Shown: positions 21,024-43,540 of the stretch, piece by piece
Position numbering within the stretch: the first letter of the stretch is position 1
Layout: each line of letters opens with the position of its first letter
Source of the DNA: Candidatus Puniceispirillum sp.
GTDB lineage: Bacteria; Pseudomonadota; Alphaproteobacteria; Puniceispirillales; Puniceispirillaceae
NCBI GenBank assembly: GCA_028382965.1
Contig: JAOEUK010000002.1
Coordinates: 124,001 to 188,000, forward strand
Direction: 5' to 3'
DNA length: 64,000 nt
Made by a program: the position numbers and the translations under genes
The notes under the pieces: generated by a model
The model's database searches: none
The model's input: only the letters and a program-made list of their open reading frames with translations
Told to the model about the DNA's origin: nothing

Positions 21024-21052
21024 TCATATTTTTCTGTTTAAAGAAGGGTTCT

Positions 21053-21571: not shown

Positions 21572-21606
21572 AAAAAGCTGGCTCTTATTAACAAATATCA
21601 ATCGTT

Positions 21607-21639
21607 AAAAGTTTGGGGTACATACCCCAGACTTTTTTT
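21607..21639. terminator. bidirectional rho-independent terminator
   Basis: AAAAGTTTGGGGT-ACAT-ACCCCAGACTTTTTTT, about 13-bp stem with one mismatch flanked by A/T runs, between convergent ppiase and rarD. Confidence 0.8.
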
Positions 21640-21641
21640 GG

Positions 21642-22544
21642 TTAGGCTAATGACTTAGTTGTATCTATGGCCTTACCTACCGTAAAAAAATACACTGCAA
21701 TGCCAGCCCATATCATGCCAAATGGTATTAAATCAAACGCAACAAACGGCTCGGCAAAAACAAACACCCCAAGAAATAAATGGGCTGTGGGATTACTATA
21801 AAAAAGTAAACTAGCTGAAGTCATGTTCAGTAGGCTGTTGCCCTTTAAAAACAGCACTAATGGCAGGACGGTGACAACACCAGCAAGTAATGCCAGGCAT
21901 ACATTTGCTGTCCCACCGCCAAAAAATAAGACCTGTCCATCTGCCTTCATCCAAATCAAAAATACAATCGCAAATGGAAATAAAGCTAAAGTTTCAATAA
22001 ACAGTCCCTGTAAGGGATCAAAATCCATCCGCTTGCGCAACACAGCATAAAGCGAAAAACTCCCGGCAAGTGCTAACGAAACCCACGGAACATTCGTCAT
22101 CATCAGTGCTTTGGTTAAAACTCCAAAGCCAACGAATCCAATTGCGATCCACGCCCAAGCAGTAAGCCTCTCATTGAGCACCAGGATTCCTAGCATTACA
22201 GTGCATAATGGATAGACAAAATAACCAAGCGCAGCAGCAACAACCTGTTCAGTTTGAACCGCGTAAACATACATGCTCCAATTCAGCAACAAGAAAAAAG
22301 TTGTAATAGAAAAGTTGATCAAGTGACGACGTCCTTTGATCAACATCCAGATATCACCAAGATGGCCCCTCATCCAACAAATGACAAAAAGCAGCACAGC
22401 CGACCATAAAGAACGTTGTGCAATGATTTCATAAGGATCGGCAGCATCAACAAGATTAATATAAAGAGGCATCATTCCCCATAAAATTCCTGCACTTAAA
22501 GACAAAGTAACGCCTATGGACCTTTTGCTCTTTAAGTTTTTCAT
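21642..22544 (-). CDS. rarD: RarD-type EamA/DMT permease
   Basis: GILWGMMPLYINLVDAADPYEIIAQRSLWSAVLL, multiple TM segments. Confidence 0.8.
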   Translation of the reverse strand: MKNLKSKRSIGVTLSLSAGILWGMMPLYINLVDAADPYEIIAQRSLWSAVLLFVICWMRGHLGDIWMLIKGRRHLINFSITTFFLLLNWSMYVYAVQTEQVVAAALGYFVYPLCTVMLGILVLNERLTAWAWIAIGFVGFGVLTKALMMTNVPWVSLALAGSFSLYAVLRKRMDFDPLQGLFIETLALFPFAIVFLIWMKADGQVLFFGGGTANVCLALLAGVVTVLPLVLFLKGNSLLNMTSASLLFYSNPTAHLFLGVFVFAEPFVAFDLIPFGMIWAGIAVYFFTVGKAIDTTKSLA

Positions 22545-22839
22545 TAATCACCAATTCTTCATTGTTCAATATATCAGTTATCAAATTGACTTGATTGCAA
22601 ATGAATTTCATGCCCGAGTTTGCGCAAAACTCGTACGCGGTAGAATCATTGCGGACCCTAATTGAGAATTATCGTTATAACTTCACTGTTTTCTTTATTT
22701 AATGCTTTTTTCATGTGTGAATAGTAAAAAGGCTTTATGGAGCTGGAAATATTAAAATTTTACGAATAGTAAAAGTTAAGTTTAGAACATGGGGCTTGGA
22801 TCGAAGACAGGTCAAAGCTAAATTTGCAGACAGGACAAC

Positions 22840-24390: not shown

Positions 24391-25440
24391 TTATGCAAAA
24401 AAATTAGCAATTTCTGCAGCTAATTGATCAACCTCATCCACTCCGATATCAAGATGGGTGACAAGTCGAATCACATTATTACCCTCACCCAGTAAAATAC
24501 CGCGTGCAGCAAGATATTCACAAAGAGCAACTCCCGAGCCATCGGGAACAGTCATAAATACCATATTTGTGTCAACCTGATCTACGGCAATGGTAACCTG
24601 ATTAATTTTGTTAAGCTGTTCTGCTAACCGGATTGCATGTTCGTGGTCTTGATTAAGCCGTTCAATGTGATTATCGAGAGCGTAAAGTCCAGCTGCGGCC
24701 AAAATACCTACTTGCCGCATTCCACCGCCAACCAGTTTACGCATACGACGCGCCCGCGTGATAAAATCATTTGATCCGACTAACACTGATCCAGCTGGAG
24801 CGCCAAGCCCTTTGGACAGACATAACGACACACTATCTACTGCCTTCACAATATCGCAGGCTGGCACACCAAGTTTGATAGCAGCATTCATAAGCCGAGC
24901 TCCATCAAGATGAACAGATAGCCCACAACCTTTGCCAGCAATCGCAAGTGTTGTAATATCCGCAACATCAAGCACGTGGCCCGATACAGTATTCTCAAGA
25001 CATAATAATCGACTAATTGGACAGTGCAAGTCATCCGGTTTAATTGCTTTTACGATTTGAGCAGCTTTCATGCACCCACGATGATCAGTTGCAATAGCTT
25101 CCATCATCACGCCACCAAGGACAGAAACGCCACCAGCCTCATAACGATGAATATGGTAACAATCACCAACCAACAATTCATCTCCGCGTTGGCAATGCGA
25201 CAGTAAAGCGACTAAATTTGACTGGGTGCCGCTGGGAACAAACAGGCCCGCATCCTTACCTAGAAGGAGGGCAACCCGTTTTTGAAGAGTGTTAACCGTA
25301 GGATCATCGCCATAAACATCATCACCAACCTCAGCAGCAACCATTGCTTCTCTCATCGCGCCTGTTGGTTTAGTAACAGTATCACTTCGCACATCAATAT
25401 AGTGCGACTTATTAATTTTTGATGCTCCTTGATCAATCAT
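24391..25440 (-). CDS. low-specificity L-threonine aldolase
   Basis: DVRSDTVTKPTGAMREAMVAAEVGDDVYGDDPTVN, HLDGARLMNAA, SLCLSKGLGAPAGSVLVG. Confidence 0.92.
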   Translation of the reverse strand: MIDQGASKINKSHYIDVRSDTVTKPTGAMREAMVAAEVGDDVYGDDPTVNTLQKRVALLLGKDAGLFVPSGTQSNLVALLSHCQRGDELLVGDCYHIHRYEAGGVSVLGGVMMEAIATDHRGCMKAAQIVKAIKPDDLHCPISRLLCLENTVSGHVLDVADITTLAIAGKGCGLSVHLDGARLMNAAIKLGVPACDIVKAVDSVSLCLSKGLGAPAGSVLVGSNDFITRARRMRKLVGGGMRQVGILAAAGLYALDNHIERLNQDHEHAIRLAEQLNKINQVTIAVDQVDTNMVFMTVPDGSGVALCEYLAARGILLGEGNNVIRLVTHLDIGVDEVDQLAAEIANFFA

Positions 25441-26392: not shown

Positions 26393-27364
26393 TTACTTGC
26401 CAATCACAAAGCTGCGCCCCTGCAGACGCGCAAAAACAGCAGTTATTTGTCCTGAAATATACATTGCATTCGCAAGGCTAGCACCAGATGCAAGCGCCCT
26501 ATCAACTTCATCATCCGTTAACACGTCTACTGCGACTGTTACCAGCCGATCTCGAAGGTCACTATCAGGAGCCAACAAATTTGCAGGCTGGCGTGATATA
26601 GCAGGCGACGGCACATTGATCGCATTCGCAATCAATGTCGCTGCAACATCTGCATCTGCAGCTGTCTTTGCCAAAACAGTTACTGAATCAGCAATGCCAA
26701 GCGAATGGCTTCGTCCACGCCACCCACTTGTGGCAATACCACCAATTTGGTCTTTTTGGACAAGCCTAATCCGGCCATCAAGAGGCATTTTACCCAACTG
26801 CTTACCATGAGCCAACATCACAGAATCACTCAAGTACACATTGCGATCATCGGCAACCCCAACATCAAAGTACGCATCTTTGCTTAAATACAGCGCGATA
26901 TCCCCACTATTATTAACACTAACGCGCTCTAAGCCATCGCCCATAGTATTCAAAATATGATCTGCAACACTGCCAGCAACAGCAACCATTGGGGTGATGT
27001 AGTTTTCTTTTTTATAGCAACTAAGGTAAGGTCGAATGGCGCGGTCCATCCTCTGGGCAACCAAGCCTTTTAAATCAGGCGGCAGCAACACTTCTGCTGG
27101 TGAACGCAACACAGGCAGTTCTTCGACAAGATTTTCCAGAAGGTTACAGAAAGCATCAGCAGCGTAAGCATAGGCGTTTGCCACCGCATCAGCTGCACCT
27201 TCAGCATTGATTATTAGATCAATTGGCCCGTGCTGGAGATGCAATCGATGATCAAGCCAGTTTGCTTGAGCCCCCCCTGGCATTTGCACCGGCACACCAA
27301 CTGCCGTTGGTAAATGTGCGGTTATTGGAACTGCTTTCCACGGATGGATTGTACCCTGCAACAT
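26393..27364 (-). CDS. UPF0280 family protein
   Basis: VAVAGSVADHILNTMGDGLERVSVNNSGDIALYL, GIATSGWRGRSHSLGIADSVTVLAKTAADADVAATLIANAIN. Confidence 0.75.
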   Translation of the reverse strand: MLQGTIHPWKAVPITAHLPTAVGVPVQMPGGAQANWLDHRLHLQHGPIDLIINAEGAADAVANAYAYAADAFCNLLENLVEELPVLRSPAEVLLPPDLKGLVAQRMDRAIRPYLSCYKKENYITPMVAVAGSVADHILNTMGDGLERVSVNNSGDIALYLSKDAYFDVGVADDRNVYLSDSVMLAHGKQLGKMPLDGRIRLVQKDQIGGIATSGWRGRSHSLGIADSVTVLAKTAADADVAATLIANAINVPSPAISRQPANLLAPDSDLRDRLVTVAVDVLTDDEVDRALASGASLANAMYISGQITAVFARLQGRSFVIGK

Positions 27365-27367
27365 AGT

Positions 27368-28873
27368 CTAACGCCAAATTGGCCATGGATTTTGATGCTG
27401 CTGCGGAATGCTCTTTTTACCAGAAATTTTATGATCATTTTGCGGACCTATCTTACCTGCCAGCACATCATCAATCGACATCACATGATTAAGATGTCCC
27501 CCAAGTTCAATATAGTCATTCTTTCGCATGGTAAATTCAATCGGCGCCACTAATGCAGGGGTAGGCACATACCCAAACGCATTGTCCGGAAGCCCCATAA
27601 CGTCAACCATCACTGTAATACCGCCGCCAGGCCATATGTAGACAGGCGCCCCACCGCAAGTGACGCGAGTTAACGCATCCTTTACTGATCGAGTAAGCAT
27701 AACAGGATTTTCGGTAACACCTGCACGAAGGGAGCCTCCAGCACCACCCATAAAATTAATTGACGTTAATGCAGGTTCGCAATTTTCTTCAATACGCTGG
27801 ATAGAGGGTTGCAGACTTGATGGCATTGGCTTTTCTGTCGGCACCAACTCATCATTCAACTCGTAATAGCCAAATTGTTCTCCAGTGGTTGATACCATCA
27901 ATAGCGACTGACCAGAACGTGCAATTTTTGTATCAAAAGGCCCCAGAATGGCCAATGGATCAATCAGATTGGTCCCGCCCCATCCCGTGCCAGGCTCAGC
28001 CACTTGGAAATAACGTCCGGGGGTTGATCGGCGACCAATTATCTTGATCCCACTTGGTGCCCAGCCAATAACCTTACCAGCCTGATGTTCAGACATCACA
28101 CCAGTAATGTGGTCATCAACAATCACAACTTCATCAACAAGGCCATGCCATTGAGCCGCAAACATTCCAACTGTGGCAGAACCGCAACCAACCCGCATGC
28201 GCGACTCGGTAACACCGTTTATTATCGGCGCCTTGCCAGCTTGCAAAAGAAGGTTTGATCCATCATCAACCTGCATATCAACAGCATTACCATTACATAA
28301 AGCCAACAATGTAGCGCAAGTCACCCGACCTTCTTTTTTGCCTCCCCCAGTCAGATGATGAACCCCACCCAATGACAACATTTGCGAGCCATATTCGCCA
28401 GTTGTCACGTGCCCAACAGGCTCCCCGTCAACGCGAACAGTGGCGCATTCAGGACCAATATGACGATCCGTGTCAATTTTTACTTTAGCACCGCAATAAC
28501 TAAAAATTCCCTCAGATACTACAGTTACCATATCAACACCATCAACAACACTACTGACGATAAAAGGGGCCGGCTTGTAATCTGGATATGTGGTGCCAGC
28601 ACCTACAGCAGTGACAAAGGCATCCTCTGGGGTAACCAGATCGCCATTCCAGTCATCCGTGCCATCAAGAAACGGAACCAGCTCACCACCTTCATCAAAA
28701 CGCCGCTGCATTACCACCAACGGATCAACACGAAGAAGTTGGCCTCCCTCATTGGCATAACGGTCGCAAGCACCTGATTTACCATCAGCGATAAAACACA
28801 TCACTGGGCAGGCATCACAGCGGATTTTTTCTTTGTCCCGTTTATCACGCTTGATTTTTGTTGCCATACTCAA
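27368..28873 (-). CDS. 6-hydroxynicotinate-reductase-like iron-sulfur protein
   Basis: 501 aa; N-terminal CDACPVMCFI...GACDRY cysteine cluster; resembles proteins annotated as 6-hydroxynicotinate reductase (recalled family); ATGA overlap with the upstream Mo-hydroxylase gene. Confidence 0.65.
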   Translation of the reverse strand: MSMATKIKRDKRDKEKIRCDACPVMCFIADGKSGACDRYANEGGQLLRVDPLVVMQRRFDEGGELVPFLDGTDDWNGDLVTPEDAFVTAVGAGTTYPDYKPAPFIVSSVVDGVDMVTVVSEGIFSYCGAKVKIDTDRHIGPECATVRVDGEPVGHVTTGEYGSQMLSLGGVHHLTGGGKKEGRVTCATLLALCNGNAVDMQVDDGSNLLLQAGKAPIINGVTESRMRVGCGSATVGMFAAQWHGLVDEVVIVDDHITGVMSEHQAGKVIGWAPSGIKIIGRRSTPGRYFQVAEPGTGWGGTNLIDPLAILGPFDTKIARSGQSLLMVSTTGEQFGYYELNDELVPTEKPMPSSLQPSIQRIEENCEPALTSINFMGGAGGSLRAGVTENPVMLTRSVKDALTRVTCGGAPVYIWPGGGITVMVDVMGLPDNAFGYVPTPALVAPIEFTMRKNDYIELGGHLNHVMSIDDVLAGKIGPQNDHKISGKKSIPQQHQNPWPIWR

Positions 28874-31629
28874 CCGCTCCTTTTTGCTTTTTCTTCTAAC
28901 GCAGTAATGGCCGCGAAAATTTTGTCTGGTGTGGCTGGCAAGTCAAAAACACTTGCCCCAGTAGCATGACGGATTGCATTTAAAATTGCTGGGGCAGTTG
29001 GTATAAGAACATGCTCACCAAGGCCTTTAGCACCATAAGGACCTTCTTCATCTGGAACCTCAATAATCACGTGGTTGAATTCTGGAATATCACCAATAGT
29101 TGGGATAAGATAATCATGCAAATTTTCAGTTCTGCCCGGCTGATAATCTTCCATCAAGGCAAGCCCTAAACCTTGAGCAACCCCGCCCTCAATTTGTCCT
29201 TCAATCAAAAGTGGGTTAATCGCCCGCCCAACGTCATGCGCTGTCGTCACTGTTTCAAGCTTGACTTGACCAAGCACACAATCAACTGAAAGTTCCATCA
29301 TCTGTGCACCATAGCCAAACACAGCATAAGGGATGCCCTGCCCTTTATCATTAAGTGGGCTTGTCGGCGGGTCATAGGTTTCCTCAGCCATAAAGACATA
29401 TCCAAAATCATTGACAGGCAACTCCGACAAATCAATACGCGCAAAACCTCCAGCCGCATCATTTAGAAGAAGCAAGGAGCCGTCAAAATTAATCTGGGCA
29501 TCGCTATCAACATTACCTTGGCGTATTAAGATCTCACGTAATGCATTGCCTGATAACATGGCCGCCTTTCCTGAGACAAAGGTTTGGCGTGAAGCTGAAG
29601 TTTTGCCGCAGTCAGGTGTGAGGTCTGTATCACCTCCAACAATTTGCACTTCATGCACTGGTAAACCCAGTGCATCAGCGGCAATTTGAGTAATTACCGT
29701 ATTTGCACCCTGACCAATATCCATTGCCCCTTGGTGCAGCACAACCACCCCACTAGAGGTAACCCCAATACGCATGGTTGATGGGTTTGGTAATGAGGTA
29801 TTACCACATCCATACCAACAACTAGCAACCCCTACGCCTCGGCGCCATGGGCTACCATTTTTAATCGCCACTTCATTAAAATTTGCAGCCTTCAACAGCG
29901 CGGATTGCCAGCATTCTTCTAAAGCTTCAAAACACTCATCAATTCCTACACCACTCTTAAAAACTTGCCCAGTTACTGTTGGCACGCCATTTTTTAGAGC
30001 ATTTCGCCGCCGAAATGCTAGGCGGTCCATGCCCACTTTTTCAGCGAGCAAGTCATAGGCGCATTCTTGAGCAATTGCTGATTGAGGCACCCCAAACCCA
30101 CGAAAAGCGCCAGCTGGCGGTGCATTCGTATGGACCGCAACACTTTTGGCGCGATAGTCAGTGGTTTTATAAGGTCCACACGCATGTATTGGTACACGGT
30201 TCGCCACAGTCGGTCCCCAGCTCGCATAGGCACCAGTATTAAAAACACCATCAAATACAAAACCACTGATCTCCCCTTTTTCATCGCAGCCAATGCTTAA
30301 TCGAATATCAGATGGATGGCGCTTGGTTGAAGCACGCATTGACTCACCACGGCTGTAGCAAATACGGGCTGGCCGTTTTAACACCCAAGCGGCAAGAGCA
30401 ACATAAGGTTGAAATGAAACATCCAGCTTTGCGCCGAATCCACCACCACAAGCAGAAGGCACCACACGAATTTTTGCTAGGTCCATGCCCATAATCTCAG
30501 CAAGGCTCTCACGGTCCATTTGGGCTGCCTGTGTACAGCCATGAATGACAATTCTACTGCCCTCAAGTACTGCATATCCTGACTCAGGTTCGATATAAGC
30601 ATGCTCAATAAATGGTGTTTTGGTCCTTACGTTCACTTGGTGCTTGGCAGCAGCTAATGCCTTGTCAGCATCTCCACATTCAACATAACCACGCACCAAA
30701 ATGTTGCCATCACGGCTATTATGCAGCTTTGGCGCACCAGAACTCGTCGAAGACTCTGGAGTCAGCATAGTGTCATGTGGTTCCCATGAAATTGGAAAAT
30801 CAGCCTCATCAAATCTACTAACGCTGTCCGGATCACCTACAATTGCTGCGACAGCATCACCTCTATAAAGGGCTGTCGTTTCGGCAAACACCGGTTGATC
30901 AGCAAATGGTGGGATTACACCAAAACAATTCCGGCCGGGAACATCACTGGCATCCAGCACCGCCAAAATCCCAGGTTGTTCTGCCAGGAACGCAGCCTTA
31001 TCACCAATCTGGAAACTAGCATAGTGATGCGGGCTTCGGATAACTCTTACCAACACTGCATCGTGCGGCACCTGATCATCACCATAAACAAGACTGGCAT
31101 CCACCTTTGGTTGTCCGTCAATATGCCGGATGGGGCTGCCAACACTGCATCCTCCTTTCGGAGATAAAGGCACGCCTATTCCAGTGCCAACCGCAAGCAC
31201 AGCATCAATGATTTTGCTATATCCTGTGCAACGGCATAAAACACCACCAAGCGCGTTTTGGACATCGCACCGCGATGGTGCTGGGTTTTCAGCAAGCAAC
31301 GCATGGGCAGCAACCAACATCCCCGGCGTGCAAATACCACATTGAGCTGCTCCATAGGCAAGAAAACTATCTTGCAGCCCTGCAATTTTACCAGCTTCAT
31401 GAAGCCCCTCAATACTGGTAACTTCGGCACCCTCAACTTGCCCGATAGCCGTCAGGCAACTACAGATTGGTGCTCCGTCAAGAAGTACGCTACAGGCCCC
31501 ACAATCGCCAGCATTACAGCCAATTTTTGTACCAAAAAGGTCCATTTCGTTCCGAAGCACATCACTTAGTCTCGTGCTTGCTGGCAACTGGCTGGTCACA
31601 ATTCGACCATTCAGGGTAAAATAAGTCAT
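28870..31629 (-). CDS. molybdopterin-dependent hydroxylase, fused [2Fe-2S] and Mo-binding domains (xanthine dehydrogenase family)
   Basis: N-terminus GCNAGDCGACSVLLDG...CGICTPGMLVAAHALL...CRCTGYSKI; C-terminal Mo domain CGGGFGAKLDVSFQPYVALAA, GAFRGFGVPQ, GAKGLGEH. Confidence 0.9.
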   Translation of the reverse strand: MTYFTLNGRIVTSQLPASTRLSDVLRNEMDLFGTKIGCNAGDCGACSVLLDGAPICSCLTAIGQVEGAEVTSIEGLHEAGKIAGLQDSFLAYGAAQCGICTPGMLVAAHALLAENPAPSRCDVQNALGGVLCRCTGYSKIIDAVLAVGTGIGVPLSPKGGCSVGSPIRHIDGQPKVDASLVYGDDQVPHDAVLVRVIRSPHHYASFQIGDKAAFLAEQPGILAVLDASDVPGRNCFGVIPPFADQPVFAETTALYRGDAVAAIVGDPDSVSRFDEADFPISWEPHDTMLTPESSTSSGAPKLHNSRDGNILVRGYVECGDADKALAAAKHQVNVRTKTPFIEHAYIEPESGYAVLEGSRIVIHGCTQAAQMDRESLAEIMGMDLAKIRVVPSACGGGFGAKLDVSFQPYVALAAWVLKRPARICYSRGESMRASTKRHPSDIRLSIGCDEKGEISGFVFDGVFNTGAYASWGPTVANRVPIHACGPYKTTDYRAKSVAVHTNAPPAGAFRGFGVPQSAIAQECAYDLLAEKVGMDRLAFRRRNALKNGVPTVTGQVFKSGVGIDECFEALEECWQSALLKAANFNEVAIKNGSPWRRGVGVASCWYGCGNTSLPNPSTMRIGVTSSGVVVLHQGAMDIGQGANTVITQIAADALGLPVHEVQIVGGDTDLTPDCGKTSASRQTFVSGKAAMLSGNALREILIRQGNVDSDAQINFDGSLLLLNDAAGGFARIDLSELPVNDFGYVFMAEETYDPPTSPLNDKGQGIPYAVFGYGAQMMELSVDCVLGQVKLETVTTAHDVGRAINPLLIEGQIEGGVAQGLGLALMEDYQPGRTENLHDYLIPTIGDIPEFNHVIIEVPDEEGPYGAKGLGEHVLIPTAPAILNAIRHATGASVFDLPATPDKIFAAITALEEKAKRSG

Positions 31630-32510
31630 GCATTTATCCCGCTTGCAAAATCGCGTTGCTGATCAGCCAGCAATCGTCGAACAACTTCAACTGAAGCTTG
31701 ACGTCGATAGCTAGCTGGGGCACGCACATCATCAATTGGCGCTAATGCGTCAAAATGTTCCAGCATTACTCGCTCAGTTGCAGTTGCCAATGGAGTGCCA
31801 AGCAAGGCGGCCTCAGCTCTATCCATCCGCATTGCAACTTCGCTGCATGCGCCAACAGACAAAGCAATTGTTGAGATCAAACCAGCCGCGTCTACATCCA
31901 GACGAAGCGCTGCCATACTTATCGAAATAACCAGATAAGACCGCGCGCCAAGTTTCAAAAAGCCAGATTTTCCCACTGTTGATTCTAGCGGAATACGCAG
32001 TGCACTGACCATTTCATTAGCTTTTAGTGCTGTTTTCCGATTACCAAGAATAAAAGCGGATAGCGGCAAATGGCGAAGGCCTGCCTTGGCAGCAATCTCA
32101 ACCTCCGCATTTAGTATCAATAATGGTGGCACACCATCTGCTGCTGGCGACGCATTACAAAGGTTGCCAATAATAGTGGCACGGTTCTGGATCTGGACTG
32201 AACCAACTTCACGTGCTGCTGTTTTCAGAGCATCAAATGCTGGCGGTAAATCGGCATCAATTACAGATCGCCAGCTTGCAGCGGCACCAATGCGCCAATA
32301 TCCACCATCAAAATTTATGTCTCCAAGTTCGGCAATGCCTGAAATATCAAGAATAGCACCAACAAGTGGCCGGTCTTGCAAACTTGGAAAAACATCAGTA
32401 CCACCTGCCAAAATTTTTCTAGGGCCTTTAGCCAGCGCTGAGACAGCAGCGTTTAAGCTATCAACACGCAAATAATCTACGTCACCCCTTGTATTCAATC
32501 TATTGTGCAT
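31626..32510 (-). CDS. FAD-binding subunit of molybdopterin hydroxylase
   Basis: KILAGGTDVFP, GSVQIQNRATIIGNLCNASPAADGVPPLL (CoxM-type FAD motifs); 4-nt overlap with the Mo subunit. Confidence 0.88.
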   Translation of the reverse strand: MHNRLNTRGDVDYLRVDSLNAAVSALAKGPRKILAGGTDVFPSLQDRPLVGAILDISGIAELGDINFDGGYWRIGAAASWRSVIDADLPPAFDALKTAAREVGSVQIQNRATIIGNLCNASPAADGVPPLLILNAEVEIAAKAGLRHLPLSAFILGNRKTALKANEMVSALRIPLESTVGKSGFLKLGARSYLVISISMAALRLDVDAAGLISTIALSVGACSEVAMRMDRAEAALLGTPLATATERVMLEHFDALAPIDDVRAPASYRRQASVEVVRRLLADQQRDFASGINA

Positions 32511-32566: not shown

Positions 32567-34288
32567 TTAGCTGACTTGCGCATTCAGTAGATTCTGCATA
32601 GAGGCGTTCACTTCACGACTGTAAAGCCGTGCCATTTGCCCAGTAGGTGGTAACGGCTCGTCACAGAAAAAAGATGGTAATTCATCATCAATCTCATCAA
32701 ACCCAGCTGCCTTGTTAAAGGCCGCCTCAAGACGCAATGTCTCAAGACCAATATTTTGGATAAATTCCGGCGTTACTCCTGCATCAAAAGCATCATTAAT
32801 AGCATCAGCAATTAGCTTTAAATTATCATCGGTCACAGACCGACCAAAAACACATAAGCCAAATGAATCCGCCACTGCACTGCTGATCTGCATCCGAAGG
32901 CTCTCAGCTACCAATTCATCAATTGTTTTGTCATCACATTTGAATGATGGGGCATTGCCAACTGTATGATCAGCACCCTGTGCTGTAAGCATCATTGAAA
33001 TGCCTGTTACTTCTATTATGCGAGGATCATAGGCACTTATCGCCTGCTTTTTGATTACCGGCACCCTCGCTACATTAAAGGCTTCACCAACTCGAGCAGT
33101 TCCTGAGGCATATAGCTGACCAAGCTCACTGCCACTGCGAATTTCTTCCAGACAGCATTGCATAAAGCTGATGTCACCAAACTCTCCTTCACCGCCCTCC
33201 ATCAGAACACCAATAGTTGCACCAAGCTCAATACTATCAACCCCAAGATCATTCGCTGTTTCATTTAACCTTGCTACATCATCAGGGTTTTCAAGCCCAC
33301 AATTGGTACCTAGTAAGCCAATAGTCTCATATTCCAATGGTGATACGAGTTCACGCCCAGTGTCATCAACATAAACATTGCTACATTTGATCAGGCAGCC
33401 GGGCATACAAGCATGTGACGTGTCACCTCCACGTCCACCATTTAACTCACGAATATAGTCACCACCCATTTTAAGAGGACCATCTGATGTTGTAGTTAAT
33501 TGCCCTGACGAAAAATTACGAACCGGTAGCGCCCCAAGATGATTAGTCAAATCAGCTACCATTGCCGTTCCAGTTGTTTTCAAACTTTGCACAGCAACCG
33601 ACTCACCAAGCTTCTTTCCATAATCTTTGATCGCACCCATTAATTTTTTTCGATCATTAACAGGAGGCATGCGATCTTTATCGATGACCATCGCCTTAAT
33701 TTTTTTTGAACCCATAACCGCACCAACACCACCGCGTGCAGCAAGCCTTGAAGGCCGATTATCTGTATCAGAAAATGCCACGCCAGCCATCAAGCCAAGA
33801 TATTCACCAACGGGTCCACAAAGGGCTAGTGAAGTTTTTTCACCATAAGCCACATGTAGTTTTTTTGCACAGTCAAAATTGCCAAGCCCAAGATAAGGAG
33901 TTGCATCATCAAAGCAAATTTCACCATCTTTTTTAATGCGGATCACAACCCAATCATCGCATGCCCCATTAAGAGTAATACCAGCAATCAATAGTTGACC
34001 CATAGCAAAGCCAAATGTACCTCCACTATTAGCCTCTTTGATTCCGCCTGTTAACGGACTTTTGCAGCCAACACTTAGACGATTGGCATTGGAAAAATTT
34101 GTCCCAGCAAATGGACCAACAGAGAAAATTAATGGGTTTTCAGGTGCAAATGGCTCAACCCCAGCAATGTTTTTCTCAAGCAGCATTCTTGCTATCAAAT
34201 AGCGTCCAGACTTAGCAATTTCTTGCCCTGACAAATCACGGACAGAGCTTGTTTTGTTACTAAGATCAATATCAATGTGTTTGCGCAT
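32567..34288 (-). CDS. tungsten-type aldehyde:ferredoxin oxidoreductase family protein
   Basis: GPFAGTNFSNANRLSVGCKSPLTGGIKEANSGGTFG, RLAARGGVGAVMGSKKIKAMVI, HACMPGCLIKCSN, ADSFGLCVFG. Confidence 0.88.
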   Translation of the reverse strand: MRKHIDIDLSNKTSSVRDLSGQEIAKSGRYLIARMLLEKNIAGVEPFAPENPLIFSVGPFAGTNFSNANRLSVGCKSPLTGGIKEANSGGTFGFAMGQLLIAGITLNGACDDWVVIRIKKDGEICFDDATPYLGLGNFDCAKKLHVAYGEKTSLALCGPVGEYLGLMAGVAFSDTDNRPSRLAARGGVGAVMGSKKIKAMVIDKDRMPPVNDRKKLMGAIKDYGKKLGESVAVQSLKTTGTAMVADLTNHLGALPVRNFSSGQLTTTSDGPLKMGGDYIRELNGGRGGDTSHACMPGCLIKCSNVYVDDTGRELVSPLEYETIGLLGTNCGLENPDDVARLNETANDLGVDSIELGATIGVLMEGGEGEFGDISFMQCCLEEIRSGSELGQLYASGTARVGEAFNVARVPVIKKQAISAYDPRIIEVTGISMMLTAQGADHTVGNAPSFKCDDKTIDELVAESLRMQISSAVADSFGLCVFGRSVTDDNLKLIADAINDAFDAGVTPEFIQNIGLETLRLEAAFNKAAGFDEIDDELPSFFCDEPLPPTGQMARLYSREVNASMQNLLNAQVS

Positions 34289-34442: not shown

Positions 34443-35621
34443 TCAATGAAGGATTTCTGGTAAATTCGTTGCTGGTGGGGTGTTACGGCTGCGGTCACTT
34501 CGTACAATGCCATCGATAATAGTCATTCCAATTCCAGGTAGGTTGCCTTGATAAATGCTTTCTAGCATGTTTTTACCTGGAGCGTGTTGTGCTGTATCCA
34601 TAAGCACAAAATCAGCGCTTCGCCCCACTTCCACAATTCCACAATCCAAATCACGTATTCGTGCCGTATTACCAGTTCCAAAGCAAAAAGCAATTTCTGG
34701 TGGGATATCGCCAAGACTTGAGAGCATGGCAATCATGCGGAGGATCCCCAGTGGCTGTACACCAGAACCTGCAGGCCCATCCGTTCCAAGAATTACCCGC
34801 TCAGCTTGCTTAATTTCAAAGGCGGTTCGCATTGCAAGTAATCCAGCACGCTCATTACCATTGTGAACAATTTCAATGCCGCGGCTACAGCTCTCACATA
34901 GACAGGTAATTTGGTCATCTGGAAGTGCGGTGTGACCGCCATTAATATGCCCGATAATATCAGCATCAGTTTCCAACACTACATCTTTATCAATCAGCCC
35001 TGACCCAGGAATTGATGGCCCCCCTGTGTGAATTGTAGATTGAATGCCATATTTCCGAGCCCATTTGACCATCTGTGCAGCTGTTTTTCCATCCTTAACT
35101 GATCCAAGACCAACCTCGCCAAGCAACGTTACGCCCGCATCGGCGAGTTCTTTGAAATCAGACTCAACCATGCCATTTTCGATAACTGGAGCTCCAGCGA
35201 GCACTTTTACACCTGATGGCCTGAAATTTTCGTACCATCGCTGCGACGCAATCGCCATTGCCTTGAGACCAACAATATCTTTTGGTCGTCCCGGCGCATG
35301 AACCTCACCAGCGGAAATCATGGTTGTCACCCCGCCATGAAGACAGGAGTCAATCCAGTTCAACTGTTGTTGCCGCGGCGTGTAATCACCAATAACAGGA
35401 TGCACATGACTGTCAATCAACCCTGGCGTAAGCGTCACACCGCGAGCATGGATCCGAACTGTCGCATTATCGAGGTCCATGTCCTTAGCGTATCCAATAT
35501 CTGTAATTCTGCCCTCAGTCGCAATCACGCAATCTCCATCAAGTATTGGCGCCTCAAGTTTTCCTGAAAGAATTTGTCCAATATTGGTGATCACAAGTTT
35601 TTTCGAAACCATTCTCTCCAC
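34443..35621 (-). CDS. enamidase-like amidohydrolase
   Basis: TPGLIDSHVHPVIGDYTPRQQ, HGGVTTMISAGEVHAPGRPKDIVGLKA, GEVGLGSVKDGKTAAQMVKWARKYG, HTGGPSIPGSG, HINGGHTALP, GSGVQPLGILR, SRNTPPA; recalled similarity to Eubacterium barkeri enamidase. Confidence 0.75.
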   Translation of the reverse strand: MERMVSKKLVITNIGQILSGKLEAPILDGDCVIATEGRITDIGYAKDMDLDNATVRIHARGVTLTPGLIDSHVHPVIGDYTPRQQQLNWIDSCLHGGVTTMISAGEVHAPGRPKDIVGLKAMAIASQRWYENFRPSGVKVLAGAPVIENGMVESDFKELADAGVTLLGEVGLGSVKDGKTAAQMVKWARKYGIQSTIHTGGPSIPGSGLIDKDVVLETDADIIGHINGGHTALPDDQITCLCESCSRGIEIVHNGNERAGLLAMRTAFEIKQAERVILGTDGPAGSGVQPLGILRMIAMLSSLGDIPPEIAFCFGTGNTARIRDLDCGIVEVGRSADFVLMDTAQHAPGKNMLESIYQGNLPGIGMTIIDGIVRSDRSRNTPPATNLPEILH

Positions 35622-35690: not shown

Positions 35691-36140
35691 TTAAAGCTTA
35701 TCTAACAAGGTCAAAAGCCTCGCAACCTCACGTTCTGTGAGTCGCTCAGTTGTCTCCTTCGTGATGTCTTTTGCCTTTGCAGTTGCTATATCTAATTCTT
35801 TTTTACCATGGTCAGTTAGGGAGATTTGTAAACGGCGCTTGTCCTCATTGTCTTGACGAGACCTTACTAGTCCACGTTGAATAAGCCTGGTAATCACGCC
35901 TTTGGTTGTTGCCGCATCCATCGCCACCAAACGCCCAAGCTTGTTCTGTGACATCTCACCAACTTCACTAAGCCTAGCTAAAATTGAAAATTGCGTAGGT
36001 GTCATTTCTGGCAAATGACGTGAAAAAATCTCGAGATGCCATTGACTTGCAAGTCGAAGTTTATAACCAACTTGCTCATTAAGCTGATATTCGGAGCTTT
36101 GCACTTTGGTAGGTACATGGTTTTGTTTTTGAACGGTCAT
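35691..36140 (-). CDS. MarR-family transcriptional regulator
   Basis: MTPTQFSILARLSEVGEMSQNKLGRLVAMDAATTKGVITRLIQRGLVRSRQDNEDKRRLQISLTDHGKK. Confidence 0.92.
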   Translation of the reverse strand: MTVQKQNHVPTKVQSSEYQLNEQVGYKLRLASQWHLEIFSRHLPEMTPTQFSILARLSEVGEMSQNKLGRLVAMDAATTKGVITRLIQRGLVRSRQDNEDKRRLQISLTDHGKKELDIATAKAKDITKETTERLTEREVARLLTLLDKL

Positions 36141-36285: not shown

Positions 36286-36372
36286 TCATTTGACAGCAAA
36301 CAAAATTTAATTCTTGATCATAGGCTTTAACAATATCAAAAAATCATCAGCACTGAGATGAAAGGATATCAC

Positions 36373-36960
36373 ATGGGTTTGGCAAAAATTCGAAAAATTG
36401 TAACTGTTGTTGAGGATACGCTTGAAGAAGCGGGGAAAAACATTTCACCACCAACCCGACGTGCTGCTGCAATTGCAGTCATTGAGAATCCCTTTGCCGG
36501 GACCTACAAGCATGATCTTGAAGCGCTGATGGCAATTGGTGAAGAGCTTGGCCGTCTCCTTGGTGATAAATGTGTTTCAGCCTTGGGGATCACCCCACAA
36601 GATGCAGAAAGCTATGGCAAGGCAGCCTTAGTTGGTGAAAATGGTGAACTTGAACATGCCGCAGCCATTCTGCACCCAAGGCTTGGCAAGCCGTTGCGAA
36701 TTGCAGTAGAAAAAGGCGCAGCACTTGTACCATCGAATAAAAAACGTGGGGGTATGGGGCATCCACTTGATGTACCTCTCGGTCATAAAGATGCAGCTTA
36801 TGTCCGGTCTCATTTCGATGGAATGGAAGTTCGCATCAATGATGCACCTCGGGCTAATGAAATTATGGTTGCGATTGCAGTAGCAGACTCAGGTCGACCC
36901 TTACCCCGGGTTGGCGGGTTAACTCATGAAGATGCTGTTGGCGAAGATGGATTACGCTAA
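36373..36960 (+). CDS. AA_synth (amino acid synthesis) family protein
   Basis: ENPFAGTYKHDLEALMAIGEELG, KAALVGENGELEHAAAILHPRLGKPLR, GHKDAAYVRSHFDGMEVRINDAPRANEI. Alternative start 36358. Confidence 0.75.
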   Translation: MGLAKIRKIVTVVEDTLEEAGKNISPPTRRAAAIAVIENPFAGTYKHDLEALMAIGEELGRLLGDKCVSALGITPQDAESYGKAALVGENGELEHAAAILHPRLGKPLRIAVEKGAALVPSNKKRGGMGHPLDVPLGHKDAAYVRSHFDGMEVRINDAPRANEIMVAIAVADSGRPLPRVGGLTHEDAVGEDGLR

Positions 36961-37924: not shown

Positions 37925-38851
37925 CTAATTTTTTAAACCAGCTTCAGAGAGTGCTCTCTTTAGATAAGTAATTTCAATTTTGCCTAGCTTCTGAAGTGGG
38001 GGTCGGACAATTGCTTTATCCAGCCGGCCAAGAAGTACAAGGCACTCTTTCATACGATTATGCATATCAAGAAACGGTGCACTATAAAAAGCTTGAGCCA
38101 ACGGATAGATTCTATCGTTTACACGACGTGCCGTCGCGAGGTCATTATCCTGCATAGCATTAAAAAGCTTAACTTGTAGATCAGCGATTACGCTACCTGC
38201 ACCTGATAGCAGTCCTGCTGGCTTCATCGCGAGCGAAGCCATTAACCATGAAGAGTGAGTTGATAGAACGTTAACTCTTCGGGGAAGAGATTGAAATGTT
38301 CTTATGTGCCGCTCATGCAACATAGGGTCATTGCACCAGTCCTTAATCGCAACCACACTTGGCACTTGATCAAATATCCTTAGCAGTGTTTCAAACGGAT
38401 AACCAAGACCTGTGCTGGCAGGATATTGAAACAATATCAATGGCAGGTCTGTAGCATCAGCGATTATCTTAAAATGATTAATTGCCATGTCAGGGCACAA
38501 CTGCCCACCCATGCTCATGCTGTTTGGCGGGAACACCAAAAGCGCACTCGCCCCTTCATTAGCTGCCATTTTTGCTACTTTAACCGCCGCATGACTTCCA
38601 TCAGCATAAATTCCATTTATCAATGGCAAACCACCCCCAACCTCTTTTAGAGACTCAGCAAGAAGTAACTGCTGCTCATCAAAGGTAAAGGCATGAATTT
38701 CTGATGCATGGCCGTTGACGGTAATCGCGCTCAGTCCATTTACGTCTGCAACATCACGCAAATGTTTGCGCGACGCAATAGTGTCAATTTGAAAATCTTG
38801 TTTAAATGCCACAAGTGTTGCGGGGATAACCCCTTCAGCTATAAATGCCAA
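37925..38851 (-). CDS. dihydrodipicolinate synthase-family aldolase/lyase
   Basis: TIM-barrel DHDPS pattern; LFQYPASTGLGYP, candidate Schiff-base Lys in VVAIKDW. Confidence 0.8.
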   Translation of the reverse strand: MAFIAEGVIPATLVAFKQDFQIDTIASRKHLRDVADVNGLSAITVNGHASEIHAFTFDEQQLLLAESLKEVGGGLPLINGIYADGSHAAVKVAKMAANEGASALLVFPPNSMSMGGQLCPDMAINHFKIIADATDLPLILFQYPASTGLGYPFETLLRIFDQVPSVVAIKDWCNDPMLHERHIRTFQSLPRRVNVLSTHSSWLMASLAMKPAGLLSGAGSVIADLQVKLFNAMQDNDLATARRVNDRIYPLAQAFYSAPFLDMHNRMKECLVLLGRLDKAIVRPPLQKLGKIEITYLKRALSEAGLKN

Positions 38852-38868
38852 AAAATTCCCCTGTCAAT

Positions 38869-39513
38869 TTAGCTTTCAACAATCGATCCACGCTCAATAA
38901 CGTAGGTTCTATCAATTACATCGGCAACGTGCGCATCATTTGACTCGGCGATGAGTATCGAAACACCTTCTTTTTTAAGAGACGCGAGAATCTCCCCCAT
39001 ACGTTGCGCTAAAACTGGGGCAATTCCCTCTGTTGGTTCGTCGAGCAACAGCAGCGTCTTGCCAACCATTAATGCTCGAGCCAGAGCTACGAGCTTTTGC
39101 TGACCTCCAGAAAGAGACGTTGCTGGCATTTCTTTAAACTTTTCGCATTCAGGAATGATTTTGTAAATCCAGTTTAGTCGATCCATGTAATCTTCTATGC
39201 CAGTTGACCAAACAGGAACCAATATGTTTTGCTCTGAAGTCATTTCAGGAACAAGCCGCCGATCCTCTGGCATATAGCCAAATCCCATATGAGCTCGTTT
39301 ATACCCAGGCAACAAATTAAGCTCCTCCTCTCCAAAGCGAATAGTACCATCCACGATTGGCAGCAGGCCCATAATTGAACGAAGAAACGTTGTTTTACCT
39401 GCCCCATTCCGTCCGATTAATCCAATAATTTCACCCAAATTTATTTCTAACCCAATATCTCTAAGAATTGGGGTGCCATTAATGTCAACATCTAGAGCGT
39501 TTACAGCAAGCAT
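38869..39513 (-). CDS. branched-chain-type ABC transporter ATP-binding protein (LivF-like)
   Basis: GLIGRNGAGKTTFLRSIMG, SLSGGQQKLVALARAL, LLLLDEPTEGI. Confidence 0.9.
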   Translation of the reverse strand: MLAVNALDVDINGTPILRDIGLEINLGEIIGLIGRNGAGKTTFLRSIMGLLPIVDGTIRFGEEELNLLPGYKRAHMGFGYMPEDRRLVPEMTSEQNILVPVWSTGIEDYMDRLNWIYKIIPECEKFKEMPATSLSGGQQKLVALARALMVGKTLLLLDEPTEGIAPVLAQRMGEILASLKKEGVSILIAESNDAHVADVIDRTYVIERGSIVES

Positions 39514-39522
39514 AAGCGAGTC

Positions 39523-40296
39523 CTATTTCTTTTTTTTGTGATGCTCTTTTCCAATTACAAATTCTTGGACTTTTTTATCAGCCAATGCCTTTTTTGGGGG
39601 CATATCGGCAATTATTTCACCTTGGTAAAAAGCCAGCACTCTACTAACGTAACGAGCAACAATTTCCATATCGTGCTCTACAAAAAGGACAGTTACGCCA
39701 TCCTCTTTGAGAGCACCCATAACAATATCCATAAAATCAAATTTTTCCTCAACACTAATGCCACTAGTTGGTTCATCCAGCAATAAAATGCGCGGCTTGC
39801 TAACAACAGCCATCGCGATGTCCAGTAACTTTCTAACACCCTGAGCAAGAGCGCTAACCGTTGTGTCCTTTTGAGCATTTAACTTGTATCGATTTAAAAC
39901 ATTATCAAGTTTTGATCTAAGCTCAGGCGTATCCATCAAACTCAATGCATCCAGCGCTCGGTTGTTTGCAATTGCTAACGCAATCATCAAATTTTCACCA
40001 ACGGTCATTGAATGGAAGACCTGAGAAACCTGAAAAGACCTTGATATCCCAGCATGGGTTATCTTTCGTGTCTCCAAACCAACTAGCTCTTCGCCTTCAA
40101 ACTTTATACTGCCAGCAGTAGGCGGCAAGTAACCGGTAACCATATTAACAAAACATGTTTTACCAGCGCCATTTGCACCAATAATACCAACAATTTCACC
40201 CTTTGAGATATCTACATTGATATCATTTGCCGCAACAACAGCACCAAACTTTTTAACCAAGTCCCGCACTTGAAGTATCGGAGGATTACTTATCAT
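39523..40296 (-). CDS. branched-chain-type ABC transporter ATP-binding protein (LivG-like)
   Basis: GIIGANGAGKTCFVNMVTGYLPPTAG, RILLLDEPTSGIS. Confidence 0.9.
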   Translation of the reverse strand: MISNPPILQVRDLVKKFGAVVAANDINVDISKGEIVGIIGANGAGKTCFVNMVTGYLPPTAGSIKFEGEELVGLETRKITHAGISRSFQVSQVFHSMTVGENLMIALAIANNRALDALSLMDTPELRSKLDNVLNRYKLNAQKDTTVSALAQGVRKLLDIAMAVVSKPRILLLDEPTSGISVEEKFDFMDIVMGALKEDGVTVLFVEHDMEIVARYVSRVLAFYQGEIIADMPPKKALADKKVQEFVIGKEHHKKKK

Positions 40297-41227
40297 TTTT
40301 CTTACCCCCAATTTTTTCAAGAACACTCCAAATTCCGCCAGGAATAAAGAATATTATCGTTAAAAAGGTAGCACCCATTATCAGTTGCCATGCTTGTGGC
40401 GCTAATTCAAATGCATAAGTCCTGAGAACCTCAAAAACTAAAGAGCCAATAAACGGTGCAATAACATTGCCCGGACCGGAGAGGATTGTGATAAATACCA
40501 ATTCACCAGAAACTGTCCAGTTGATCATCGACTCAGGGTCAACTTGTCCCAACGACATCGCCATCAATGCCCCAGCGCCACCTGCTAAAATAGCAGATAT
40601 CGAATATTTAAGATGAATTGCATGCGCAACCGAGAACCCGAGGTATTCCACTCGTATTTCGTTGTCTCGAATTGCTGTTGTAAGCTTACCAAAGGTTGTT
40701 TTTAGATAATAATTCACTAGAATTGCCGCAACCATGCCAACAAGCGTTATGATCACAAAAAGAGGGTATTTTGTCTCTGGAGAAACTCCCAAGATAGTTG
40801 ACATAGAGATGGCAAAACCATCTGTTGAACCCAACGCCTCAGTTTTTACTACAATTCCAAAAAGCACCATAGATATTGCAGTATTAAGCATTGCAAAGAA
40901 AATATTTCTGTAATTGCGCATAATGAATCCAACCAAAAAACCTGCTGTACCAGCGACCAGTGCACCCGCAATCAACCTCAAAAACACATCTGTAACGCCC
41001 AATTTTATATCAAGAATCGCTACCGCATAGGCACCCAAGCCAAAGTAAAAGGCATGACCAAAAGACACTAACCCAGTGCGCCACAACACCATCAGGCCAA
41101 GGATGGCCAAAGCGCGCGAAAACCCAAACATAAACTGGTTAACAATCCAGTTTGGCGCAAAAGCGCCACCAAGAATAAGCAGCAAACCCGCAACTAATAA
41201 AAATTTTGAGGTTTTATCATTAAACAT
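40286..41227 (-). CDS. branched-chain-type ABC transporter permease (LivM-like)
   Basis: Multiple TMs, RTGLVSFGHAFYFGLGAYAVAIL; start taken at MFNDKTSKF. Confidence 0.88.
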   Translation of the reverse strand: MFNDKTSKFLLVAGLLLILGGAFAPNWIVNQFMFGFSRALAILGLMVLWRTGLVSFGHAFYFGLGAYAVAILDIKLGVTDVFLRLIAGALVAGTAGFLVGFIMRNYRNIFFAMLNTAISMVLFGIVVKTEALGSTDGFAISMSTILGVSPETKYPLFVIITLVGMVAAILVNYYLKTTFGKLTTAIRDNEIRVEYLGFSVAHAIHLKYSISAILAGGAGALMAMSLGQVDPESMINWTVSGELVFITILSGPGNVIAPFIGSLVFEVLRTYAFELAPQAWQLIMGATFLTIIFFIPGGIWSVLEKIGGKKNDK

Positions 41228-41228
41228 C

Positions 41229-42125
41229 TTATATTTTCCTCGGCTTAGCTGGGGCAAACAGCCCCTCTGGCCTGAACACCAAGACAACAGCCATAACGGC
41301 GAAAACAACAAAAAGTTCGACTTGTGGTAACTCATGGACAGCTACTGCTCGGAGTAAACCGATGATTAGCGATCCAATTGCAGCGCCGGCTATAGAGCCC
41401 ATACCTCCGACAACAACAACGGCAAAAGACAATACAATCACTTCAGTTCCAAGGCCGGGTGCTACTGATATAGTCGGGGCGATGTAAGCACCGCCAAGCC
41501 CCCCAAGAATTGCCCCACCAATGAATGTCAAGGTGTAGACTAATGGCACATTGATGCCCATAGAAATGCCCATTTCACGGTCAAAAATTACCGCTTTCAA
41601 AATAGTGCCCCATTTCGTTTTATTGAGGAGCCACCAACATCCAATAGCTACTAAAGTTGCAACACCAATAAGTGTTAGACCATAAACGTCACGCGTAATG
41701 CCGCCTATTTCAACAGCAGCTAAGAGAGCCATTGGCTGGTATGCAAAGTATGGATCCGTCCCAAAAGCTATTAAGATTATATCTTCCAAGACTAAAAAGA
41801 GACCAAAGGTAGCAAGAACAATCAACACTTCGTCCCGTTGGTACATATACTTTAATATACCCTGCTCAATTATAAAGCCTAGCACTACACCAACAACAAC
41901 TGCAGCAGCAATTATGATTAAAAATCCGAGCGCATCAGGCATACCCATATCTGAAAATTTACCAATGAAAAATGCAGCGGTATAAGCACCCCAAGCATAG
42001 AAGCTTCCATGTGCAACATTAAGAATCTTCATAACGCCAAAAATAATGGTAAGCCCTGCCGAAACGATAAATAAATATGACGAGAACTGCAGTCCATCCA
42101 AAAGAATGGTCAGGAAGGTATCCAT
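41229..42125 (-). CDS. branched-chain-type ABC transporter permease (LivH-like)
   Basis: GLTIIFGVMKILNVAHGSFYAWGAY, VVVVGGMGSIAGAAIGSLIIG. Confidence 0.9.
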   Translation of the reverse strand: MDTFLTILLDGLQFSSYLFIVSAGLTIIFGVMKILNVAHGSFYAWGAYTAAFFIGKFSDMGMPDALGFLIIIAAAVVVGVVLGFIIEQGILKYMYQRDEVLIVLATFGLFLVLEDIILIAFGTDPYFAYQPMALLAAVEIGGITRDVYGLTLIGVATLVAIGCWWLLNKTKWGTILKAVIFDREMGISMGINVPLVYTLTFIGGAILGGLGGAYIAPTISVAPGLGTEVIVLSFAVVVVGGMGSIAGAAIGSLIIGLLRAVAVHELPQVELFVVFAVMAVVLVFRPEGLFAPAKPRKI

Positions 42126-42208
42126 AAAAGCCTCCAAAAAGAGTTCAAAGTGATTAATGTAAAAAGTTGTCAGCGGCTAAAATCTGCCGCTAACAAATCA
42201 TTAATTGG

Positions 42209-43540
42209 CTAGCACTTTGCACCTTTCATGCCACCCTTTATCCATTCAACACTGCCCACACCATCTGGTGGCATAATGCACGAAGCTGGATAAAACTTAA
42301 CATCAGTGACAATGTTTTCGCCATTTACTTCATCATATTTTGTGATGCCATAACCGTTTTCAGTAACCGCCTGGTGACCACCGCCTAAAGACATCTCAAC
42401 TTTTGTAGAAAACGATTCAAAAGTGATGCCGCGAAGAGCCCCTGCTAATTGTTCGCTGCTCGGGTCACTTCCAGCCTTATCGTAAGCTATTTTAGCGGCT
42501 AAAATAGCCTGGCCATATTGATATGCAGGCCCTGAGGGATAAGTGCCATACAGATTTTTGTATGTGTTAATAAACCATTGATTTAATACGCTATCACGAT
42601 CCCTAACTAGAATTCCATATGGACCGCGCGCACCTAATACAATGCCATTAGGCAATTTTTTACCAAGCCGGTATGCCGCTGTACCACCGACAGTTAATAC
42701 ACCAGTCTTTTTAGCAAACAAGCCTCTTGCTGCACCCTGAAAAATAAAGGCTTCTAGGTCCCCCCCCCAAAAGCTAGAGTGAACAAGATCAGCCGAGTCT
42801 AACGACATTGCAGAAATTTCAGAGCCATACTGTCCAGCAAATATTTTTGGGAACTGAACATTATCTGAAGCTTTTGAATTAGGCATTATTTGTTTCAGTG
42901 TTAAATCAAAGTCACGCCAAGAGTCCTGACCCCAAGCATAATTCTGCTGGATACCAGTATAACCCTTCATACCTGGAAAGTTCTCCTTTACGTACATTGC
43001 CGCTGCCGTGTTGTCAGCTGTCGCGTGAGACATTGTCCTAAATACGTATTGCCTCGGAGCTTCCTCAAAAATACGCGGTGTTCCGCAAGTTGCAAAGATC
43101 GTAAACTGCTTTAACTCTTCTGCTATTGGGGCCAGAGCTTGACAATTACCAGACGAAATATAGCCAACAACAGCGTCCACATTGCGCTTTTCTACAAGAT
43201 TACGATATTCTGCGACCTGTTTGGTTGCGCCGCCACCTTCATCAAGTTCTATCAATGAAGCTGTTGCACCACCGAAACCCTTGGTGTTGTAGGGCGCTGG
43301 TAATTTGCCTTTATTAATGGCATCCACAACCATTTTCGCACCATTCATTGCTGGAATGCCAAATGGTCCAGCCGCGCCACCTGTTAAAAAGCTTGGCACT
43401 GCAATTGTTATCTGCTCTCCCTCATCTGCGACCGGAGCCGTAGCTTCTTTCTTTTCTTCAGATGGCTTCTCACTAGTAAGCATAAAGGCTACCGCCCCCA
43501 CAACCAATGCAGCCAGAACCGCAACTAAACCTTTGTTCAT
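42209..43540 (-). CDS. periplasmic substrate-binding protein of Liv-type ABC transporter
   Basis: N-terminal signal/TM, Peripla_BP_6-like sequence (VDAVVGYISSGNCQALAPIAEE, FRTMSHATADNTAAAMYV). Confidence 0.85.
   Translation of the reverse strand: MNKGLVAVLAALVVGAVAFMLTSEKPSEEKKEATAPVADEGEQITIAVPSFLTGGAAGPFGIPAMNGAKMVVDAINKGKLPAPYNTKGFGGATASLIELDEGGGATKQVAEYRNLVEKRNVDAVVGYISSGNCQALAPIAEELKQFTIFATCGTPRIFEEAPRQYVFRTMSHATADNTAAAMYVKENFPGMKGYTGIQQNYAWGQDSWRDFDLTLKQIMPNSKASDNVQFPKIFAGQYGSEISAMSLDSADLVHSSFWGGDLEAFIFQGAARGLFAKKTGVLTVGGTAAYRLGKKLPNGIVLGARGPYGILVRDRDSVLNQWFINTYKNLYGTYPSGPAYQYGQAILAAKIAYDKAGSDPSSEQLAGALRGITFESFSTKVEMSLGGGHQAVTENGYGITKYDEVNGENIVTDVKFYPASCIMPPDGVGSVEWIKGGMKGAKC

Follow-up and report, generated by a model that had tools for sequence, protein, structure and literature searches.

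Why should a gene of the tungsten-type aldehyde:ferredoxin oxidoreductase (AOR) family lie in what looks like an aerobic catabolic operon of a respiring alphaproteobacterium? The gene was analyzed within a stretch of 64,000 nucleotides of Candidatus Puniceispirillum DNA (the window) and in comparison with other genomes. It encodes an intact enzyme of the AOR/WOR family within a known pathway; the literature searched does not describe such a role, and no paper in it was found to link AOR to nicotinate or SAR116 bacteria to nicotinate. A physiological role is defined for only 5 of 92 WOR clades (PMC13328260).

Gene content of the AOR locus

The genes considered below are the following (window coordinates).

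24391-25440, minus strand: threonine-aldolase-like protein of the GntG/L-threonine-aldolase family, downstream of AOR
26393..27364, minus strand: UPF0280 protein (NF003322, above cut-off)
27368..28873, minus strand: 6-hydroxynicotinate reductase (HNR) ortholog, 65-73% identity to plasmid-borne annotated proteins
28870..31629, minus strand: fused [2Fe-2S] and molybdopterin subunit, putative nicotinate hydroxylase (Fer2_2, MoCoBD_1/2)
31626..32510, minus strand: FAD subunit of the Mo-hydroxylase (FAD_binding_5, CO_deh_flav_C)
32567..34288, minus strand: AOR/WOR-family large subunit, 573 aa (Pfam AFOR_N/AFOR_C, 1aor match, conserved active-site and Fe-S residues)
34443..35621, minus strand: enamidase ortholog (residues 8-390 match the E. 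barkeri enamidase structure 2VUN, E=3e-105)
35691..36140, minus strand: MarR-family regulator (Pfam MarR), conserved in 24 HNR loci
36358..36960, plus strand: PF06684 'amino acid synthesis' family protein (Pfam E=3e-72)
37925..43540, minus strand: DapA-like protein and branched-chain-type (liv-like) ABC transporter, conserved in SAR116 loci

The AOR gene is located, as originally predicted, between the genes for the FAD subunit and the enamidase, and the predicted catabolic operon around it proves to be a nicotinate cluster, with enamidase, Mo-hydroxylase and HNR encoded on the same strand. The order of transcription is MarR, enamidase, AOR, FAD subunit, FeS-Mo subunit, HNR, UPF0280 and a HAD hydrolase. 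AOR is separated from the FAD subunit gene by 56 bp and from the enamidase gene by 154 bp, and the FAD-Mo and Mo-HNR gene pairs overlap. Since pattern scans found no excess of promoters or terminators, the genes are likely to share one transcript. The same gene order is observed in other SAR116 genomes. Judged by its predicted products, the operon is that of a reductive nicotinate pathway of the Azorhizobium/E. barkeri type. The enamidase and HNR steps are common to the SAR116 operon and the nicotinate fermentation of E. barkeri, which, however, is an anaerobe.

The HNR assignment is based on RefSeq-annotated 6-hydroxynicotinate reductases in plasmid records and not on the E. barkeri protein; the product of 27368..28873 has no Pfam or NCBIfam family match, and its predicted structure has a low pTM (0.45). 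The fused subunit matches the nicotinate dehydrogenase subunits of 3HRD with E-values from 1e-60 to 1e-33, other xanthine-oxidase-family enzymes ranking higher. The HNR-bearing plasmid clusters with UPF0280, PF06684 and ABC-transporter genes fit the published nicotinate cluster of Azorhizobium/SG-6C (PMC3511419). In the clusters described in the aerobe Azorhizobium caulinodans, Bradyrhizobium and SG-6C, the genes of the initial three steps are accompanied by those of an ABC transporter and of two conserved proteins without assigned function, but AOR is not named in that description (PMC3511419). Comparable liv-like transporter genes are found in many HNR loci, and the system at 37925..43540 is likely to be involved in substrate uptake. 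The MarR gene is a likely operon regulator, NicR-like by position.

Several minor features of the HNR clusters were noted. The HNR of the window has an N-terminal cysteine cluster, CDACPVxC...GAC. UPF0280 adjoins HNR in all 40 HNR loci; this protein may be a subunit, a cofactor-related factor or a maturase of HNR. PF06684 proteins often accompany HNR and enamidase; they occur in 28 of the 40 HNR loci, often as two tandem paralogs. A second enamidase-like gene of the same genome (G000:C35, approximately 21000-22800; L164:7007-8745) is 38% identical to the first and has a second PF06684-like gene directly after it, so that the pairing of the two families is repeated.

Identity of the AOR protein

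Both Pfam domains of the family are present, AFOR_N at residues 3-204 (E=2e-50) and AFOR_C at residues 220-552 (E=2e-52), far above their gathering scores. Matches among solved structures are P. furiosus AOR (PfAOR; 1aor, E=2e-52), P. furiosus FOR (1b25, E=8e-44), two bacterial AORs, Haloferax WOR83, AorAa, WOR5 and BamB, and all Foldseek matches of the medium-confidence predicted structure at E<=0.001 are AOR/WOR-family enzymes. The NCBIfam models PRK09849 (aldehyde ferredoxin oxidoreductase) and GAPOR also match, both far below cut-off. The two motifs on which the original assignment was based, CMPGCLIKC (C294, C298, C302) and DSFGLC (C479), provide the complete set of four [4Fe-4S] cysteines, invariant in 93/93 full-length members of the subfamily. 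Thus the family assignment is confirmed. Equally invariant in the 93 full-length orthologs are T241, E321, Y420 and H441, which correspond in the alignment to 1aor to T243, E313, Y427 and H448 of PfAOR, the second-shell residues listed for aldehyde-oxidizing WORs (PMC13328260). This is the sole AOR of the genome (99.6% complete), and no gene for WorS or another subunit adjoins this worL, its neighbors encoding the enamidase and the FAD subunit. The protein is apparently a single-subunit, Class I-like tungstopterin aldehyde:ferredoxin oxidoreductase.

Its closest named relatives come from Candidatus Puniceispirillum and SAR116 genomes. The closest match outside Proteobacteria, with 52% identity over 99%, is the AOR encoded on pTT27 of Thermus thermophilus (TT_RS10740), which also belongs to an aerobic host and shares the CMPGC motif, but adjoins CRISPR type III-B genes and no nicotinate genes. 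The cluster spacing CxxxCxxxC, which exceeds that of 1aor by one residue, is common to the two proteins, and more distant alphaproteobacterial paralogs have CxxCxxxC. Similarly, K84, R286 and R408 are present in the Thermus AOR and absent from the alphaproteobacterial paralogs; R483 is kept in 93/93 subfamily members and is lacking in the Thermus protein. These basic residues of the subfamily could bind a second carboxylate.

The original prediction considered this an unusual role for a W enzyme in a respiring alphaproteobacterium. However, aerobes with a WOR have been described before: BmWOR of Brevibacillus massiliensis (Class I) is a single-subunit, ferredoxin-dependent enzyme of an obligate aerobe, ascribed to aromatic-aldehyde detoxification and residing in no catabolic operon, and its clade, WOR clade 83, includes Thermus and many aerobic haloarchaea (PMC9424855). 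The Haloferax WOR83 structure was not the best PDB match of AOR in the profile search.

Association of AOR with nicotinate genes

In a sample of 385 alphaproteobacterial genomes, AOR orthologs (with identities from about 60% upward, whereas all further matches start near 35%) were found in 16 and HNR in 68. HNR is present in 15 of the 16 genomes with AOR versus 53 of the 369 without it, with p=2e-11, a value that overstates the association, as the genomes are related and not independent; the family-level value is p=1e-7, with 171 families assumed. All nine AOR families (9/9) fall among the 33 HNR families. Since AOR is located away from nicotinate genes in 9 of the 15 alphaproteobacterial genomes having both, the link is not merely due to shared operon inheritance. 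The remaining 53 of the 68 HNR genomes have no AOR.

Comparison of 80 named AOR loci demonstrated that only nicotinate genes recur as neighbors across many lineages. In the AOR tree (built without rows L023 and L024), adjacency to nicotinate genes occurs in three separate supported clades: one of SAR116, Filomicrobium, Rhizobiaceae and Granulosicoccaceae, the carrier from the last family being a gammaproteobacterium; one of Magnetovibrio and SI054; and one of Burkholderiales. Parsimony on this tree gives seven changes of adjacency state, and 18 of 94 AOR orthologs were seen next to nicotinate genes. As the gene order is kept in SAR116 and lineages unrelated to it show the association again, the pattern is not a chance one. 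The predicted link of AOR to the nicotinate pathway is well supported by these genomic data.

The subfamily also has members outside the pathway. Of 50 named genomes in which AOR lies away from HNR, HNR was detected in 20 and undetected in 30, incomplete bins explaining a part of these cases, and one alphaproteobacterium (G359) has AOR without HNR. Most members are solitary and their neighborhoods are varied, as would be expected if AOR were a general aldehyde-detoxifying WOR similar to BmWOR or PfAOR, residing in the operon by chance and uncoupled from HNR, perhaps to protect the cell against formylglutarate or other aldehydes. Detoxification is also the role usually ascribed to characterized Class I WORs (PMC13328260). 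We regard this explanation, the strongest of the alternatives, as unlikely, though with a real chance of being correct, because it leaves unexplained the presence of HNR in nearly all alphaproteobacterial AOR genomes, the recurrence of adjacency in three clades, and the fact that the nicotinate neighborhood is the sole one shared by multiple lineages.

A tighter association of AOR with enamidase than with HNR was considered and rejected. The enamidase ortholog is missing from 5 of the 16 AOR genomes, and in a comparison run within HNR genomes and G359 it was found in 11/16 versus 19/53 (p=0.02, compared to p=2e-11 for HNR).

Tungsten and pterin machinery

Genes of the tungstate-uptake type and pterin genes, on which the original prediction depended, are present in the genome. 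A TupABC-like transporter is encoded at G000:C34:52860-55100 (L159), where tupB- and tupC-like genes adjoin the gene for the TupA-like protein; MoaA was detected by a family search, and MobB-, MoeA- and MoaE-like genes were recognized by sequence at one locus beside it. The best PDB matches of the TupA-like protein are 3MUQ, 5MY5 and 3LR1, the last named as tungstate-binding (E=1e-55). TupA is also its best NCBIfam family, but the score is 212 bits versus the equivalog cut-off of 400. ModA was not detected, as a PF13531 search of the genome gave only the TupA-like protein and an iron-transport-type binding protein.

The modest TupA score, and the consideration that without ModA the Tup-like system may also have to supply the xanthine-oxidase-family enzymes, would suit an AOR that uses molybdenum and not tungsten, with the TupABC-like system serving as a molybdate transporter for the Mo-hydroxylases. 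This is quite improbable: the best structural matches are of the TupA type, TupA is found in all 16 AOR genomes versus 29 of the 53 HNR genomes without AOR (p=6e-4), and the aldehyde-oxidizing members of the family characterized so far are tungsten enzymes (PMC12096430). Tungstate specificity of the transporter is likely, and tungsten is the predicted metal of AOR; if so, it would join the trace-metal needs of SAR116-type bacteria. The TupABC-like system is apparently the sole Mo/W oxyanion transporter of a genome with several Mo-hydroxylases, and may carry both metals.

Predicted substrate and pathway role

In the proposed pathway, the Mo-hydroxylase would convert nicotinate to 6-hydroxynicotinate, HNR would reduce the latter to 1,4,5,6-tetrahydro-6-oxonicotinate, and the enamidase would open and deaminate the ring to form 2-formylglutarate, whose decarboxylation would yield glutarate semialdehyde. 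AOR would then oxidize glutarate semialdehyde (less likely 2-formylglutarate) to the acid and reduce ferredoxin. We give about even chances to the complete proposal, that is, a tungstopterin enzyme that serves the nicotinate pathway by oxidizing glutarate semialdehyde and reducing ferredoxin for HNR. A WOR tied in this way to a named catabolic pathway of widespread marine aerobes would provide the subfamily with a testable role.

The original prediction was that AOR could process 2-formylglutarate, if the enamidase releases it, in place of the alcohol dehydrogenase of E. barkeri. In the latter, 2-formylglutarate is reduced to the alcohol 2-(hydroxymethyl)glutarate; AOR would occupy the same position in the pathway, but it oxidizes, and the product would be different. 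Further, beta-formyl acids readily decarboxylate, which counts against direct oxidation of 2-formylglutarate, and in the Azorhizobium route of Kitts (1992) decarboxylation reportedly comes first and oxidation after. In the outline given in PMC3511419 (citing Kitts 1992), Azorhizobium degrades the reduced ring through glutarate to intermediates of the TCA cycle. With a route through glutarate and decarboxylation before oxidation, glutarate semialdehyde is the likelier substrate. In support of this, the WOR precedent is also glutarate semialdehyde: glutarate was found in the active site of P. furiosus FOR (1B25/1B4N), and glutaric semialdehyde oxidation was proposed, the native substrate being glutaric semialdehyde or dialdehyde (PMC12096430). 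This ferredoxin-reducing enzyme shares family and fold with AOR, but belongs to an archaeal hyperthermophile, has the CxxCxxxC spacing instead of CxxxCxxxC, is only about 24% identical and is not encoded in a nicotinate operon. 2-Formylglutarate stands as an aldehyde of the pathway, and indeed as the product of the enamidase, which converts 1,4,5,6-tetrahydro-6-oxonicotinate to 2-formylglutarate and NH3 (PMC7356986) and whose gene is adjacent to that of AOR; its direct conversion by AOR to 2-carboxyglutarate is nevertheless improbable.

An aldehyde of another origin was also considered. In SAR116 loci the threonine-aldolase-like gene (24391-25440) shares its strand with AOR, and AOR could clear acetaldehyde formed by the product of that gene, the nicotinate link being incidental. 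However, the aldolase gene was not found at the AOR-nicotinate loci of other lineages and is separated from AOR by five genes, which makes this explanation very improbable.

For glutarate semialdehyde, the preferred substrate, an SSADH-type aldehyde dehydrogenase, above its family cut-off, is encoded in the same genome (L149) and might perform the oxidation with NAD(P). The advantage of AOR would therefore be its electron acceptor and not the oxidation itself.

Possible electron supply to HNR

HNR (EC 1.3.7.1) is ferredoxin-dependent in E. barkeri. Ferredoxin reduced by AOR would drive the HNR step, and the pathway would supply its own low-potential reductant. Since one aldehyde gives two electrons and one ring reduction takes two, a closed loop is plausible. 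This possible ferredoxin link between AOR and HNR was absent from the original prediction, and we infer it from the gene content. A ferredoxin gene adjoins AOR at L170 and L187, both of which have HNR and the latter also enamidase, at L191, where enamidase is present, and at L192; the operon of the AOR at 32567-34288 contains none. In six genomes of other lineages, HNR is flanked by genes of a Kor-type 2-oxoacid:ferredoxin oxidoreductase, and in Sagittula by a ferredoxin-NADP reductase (FNR) gene. At 75 comparison loci without HNR, the same threshold gave KorA once and AOR-adjacent ferredoxin and FNR not at all. POR_N is absent from the three SAR116-type genomes, including the host genome; the loop, if true, would explain the supply of reduced ferredoxin to HNR in an aerobe without 2-oxoacid:ferredoxin oxidoreductase.

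A more general scheme, in which this loop is the aerobic pathway's own source of low-potential electrons and other lineages cover this demand by Kor or FNR genes at the HNR locus, is tentative, and we hold it to be somewhat less probable than its opposite. Twenty of the 53 HNR genomes without AOR are also without POR_N, so HNR can be fed otherwise and the loop is not general. Mutual exclusion of AOR and POR-type enzymes as ferredoxin reducers was tested and failed outside SAR116, POR_N being present in 13 of the 16 AOR genomes versus 33 of the 53 HNR genomes without AOR (p=0.23).

The Kor-type genes lie beside HNR or are divergent from it (L084, L090, L100, L101, L116 and genome G300), several together with an FAD oxidoreductase gene. 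Finally, hydantoinase/oxoprolinase A/B genes occur in the HNR clusters L081 (11193-14983), L082, L084, L090, L102, L107, L110, L113 and L117, and in most of these genomes no enamidase ortholog was detected, which suggests an alternative ring opening or another substrate.
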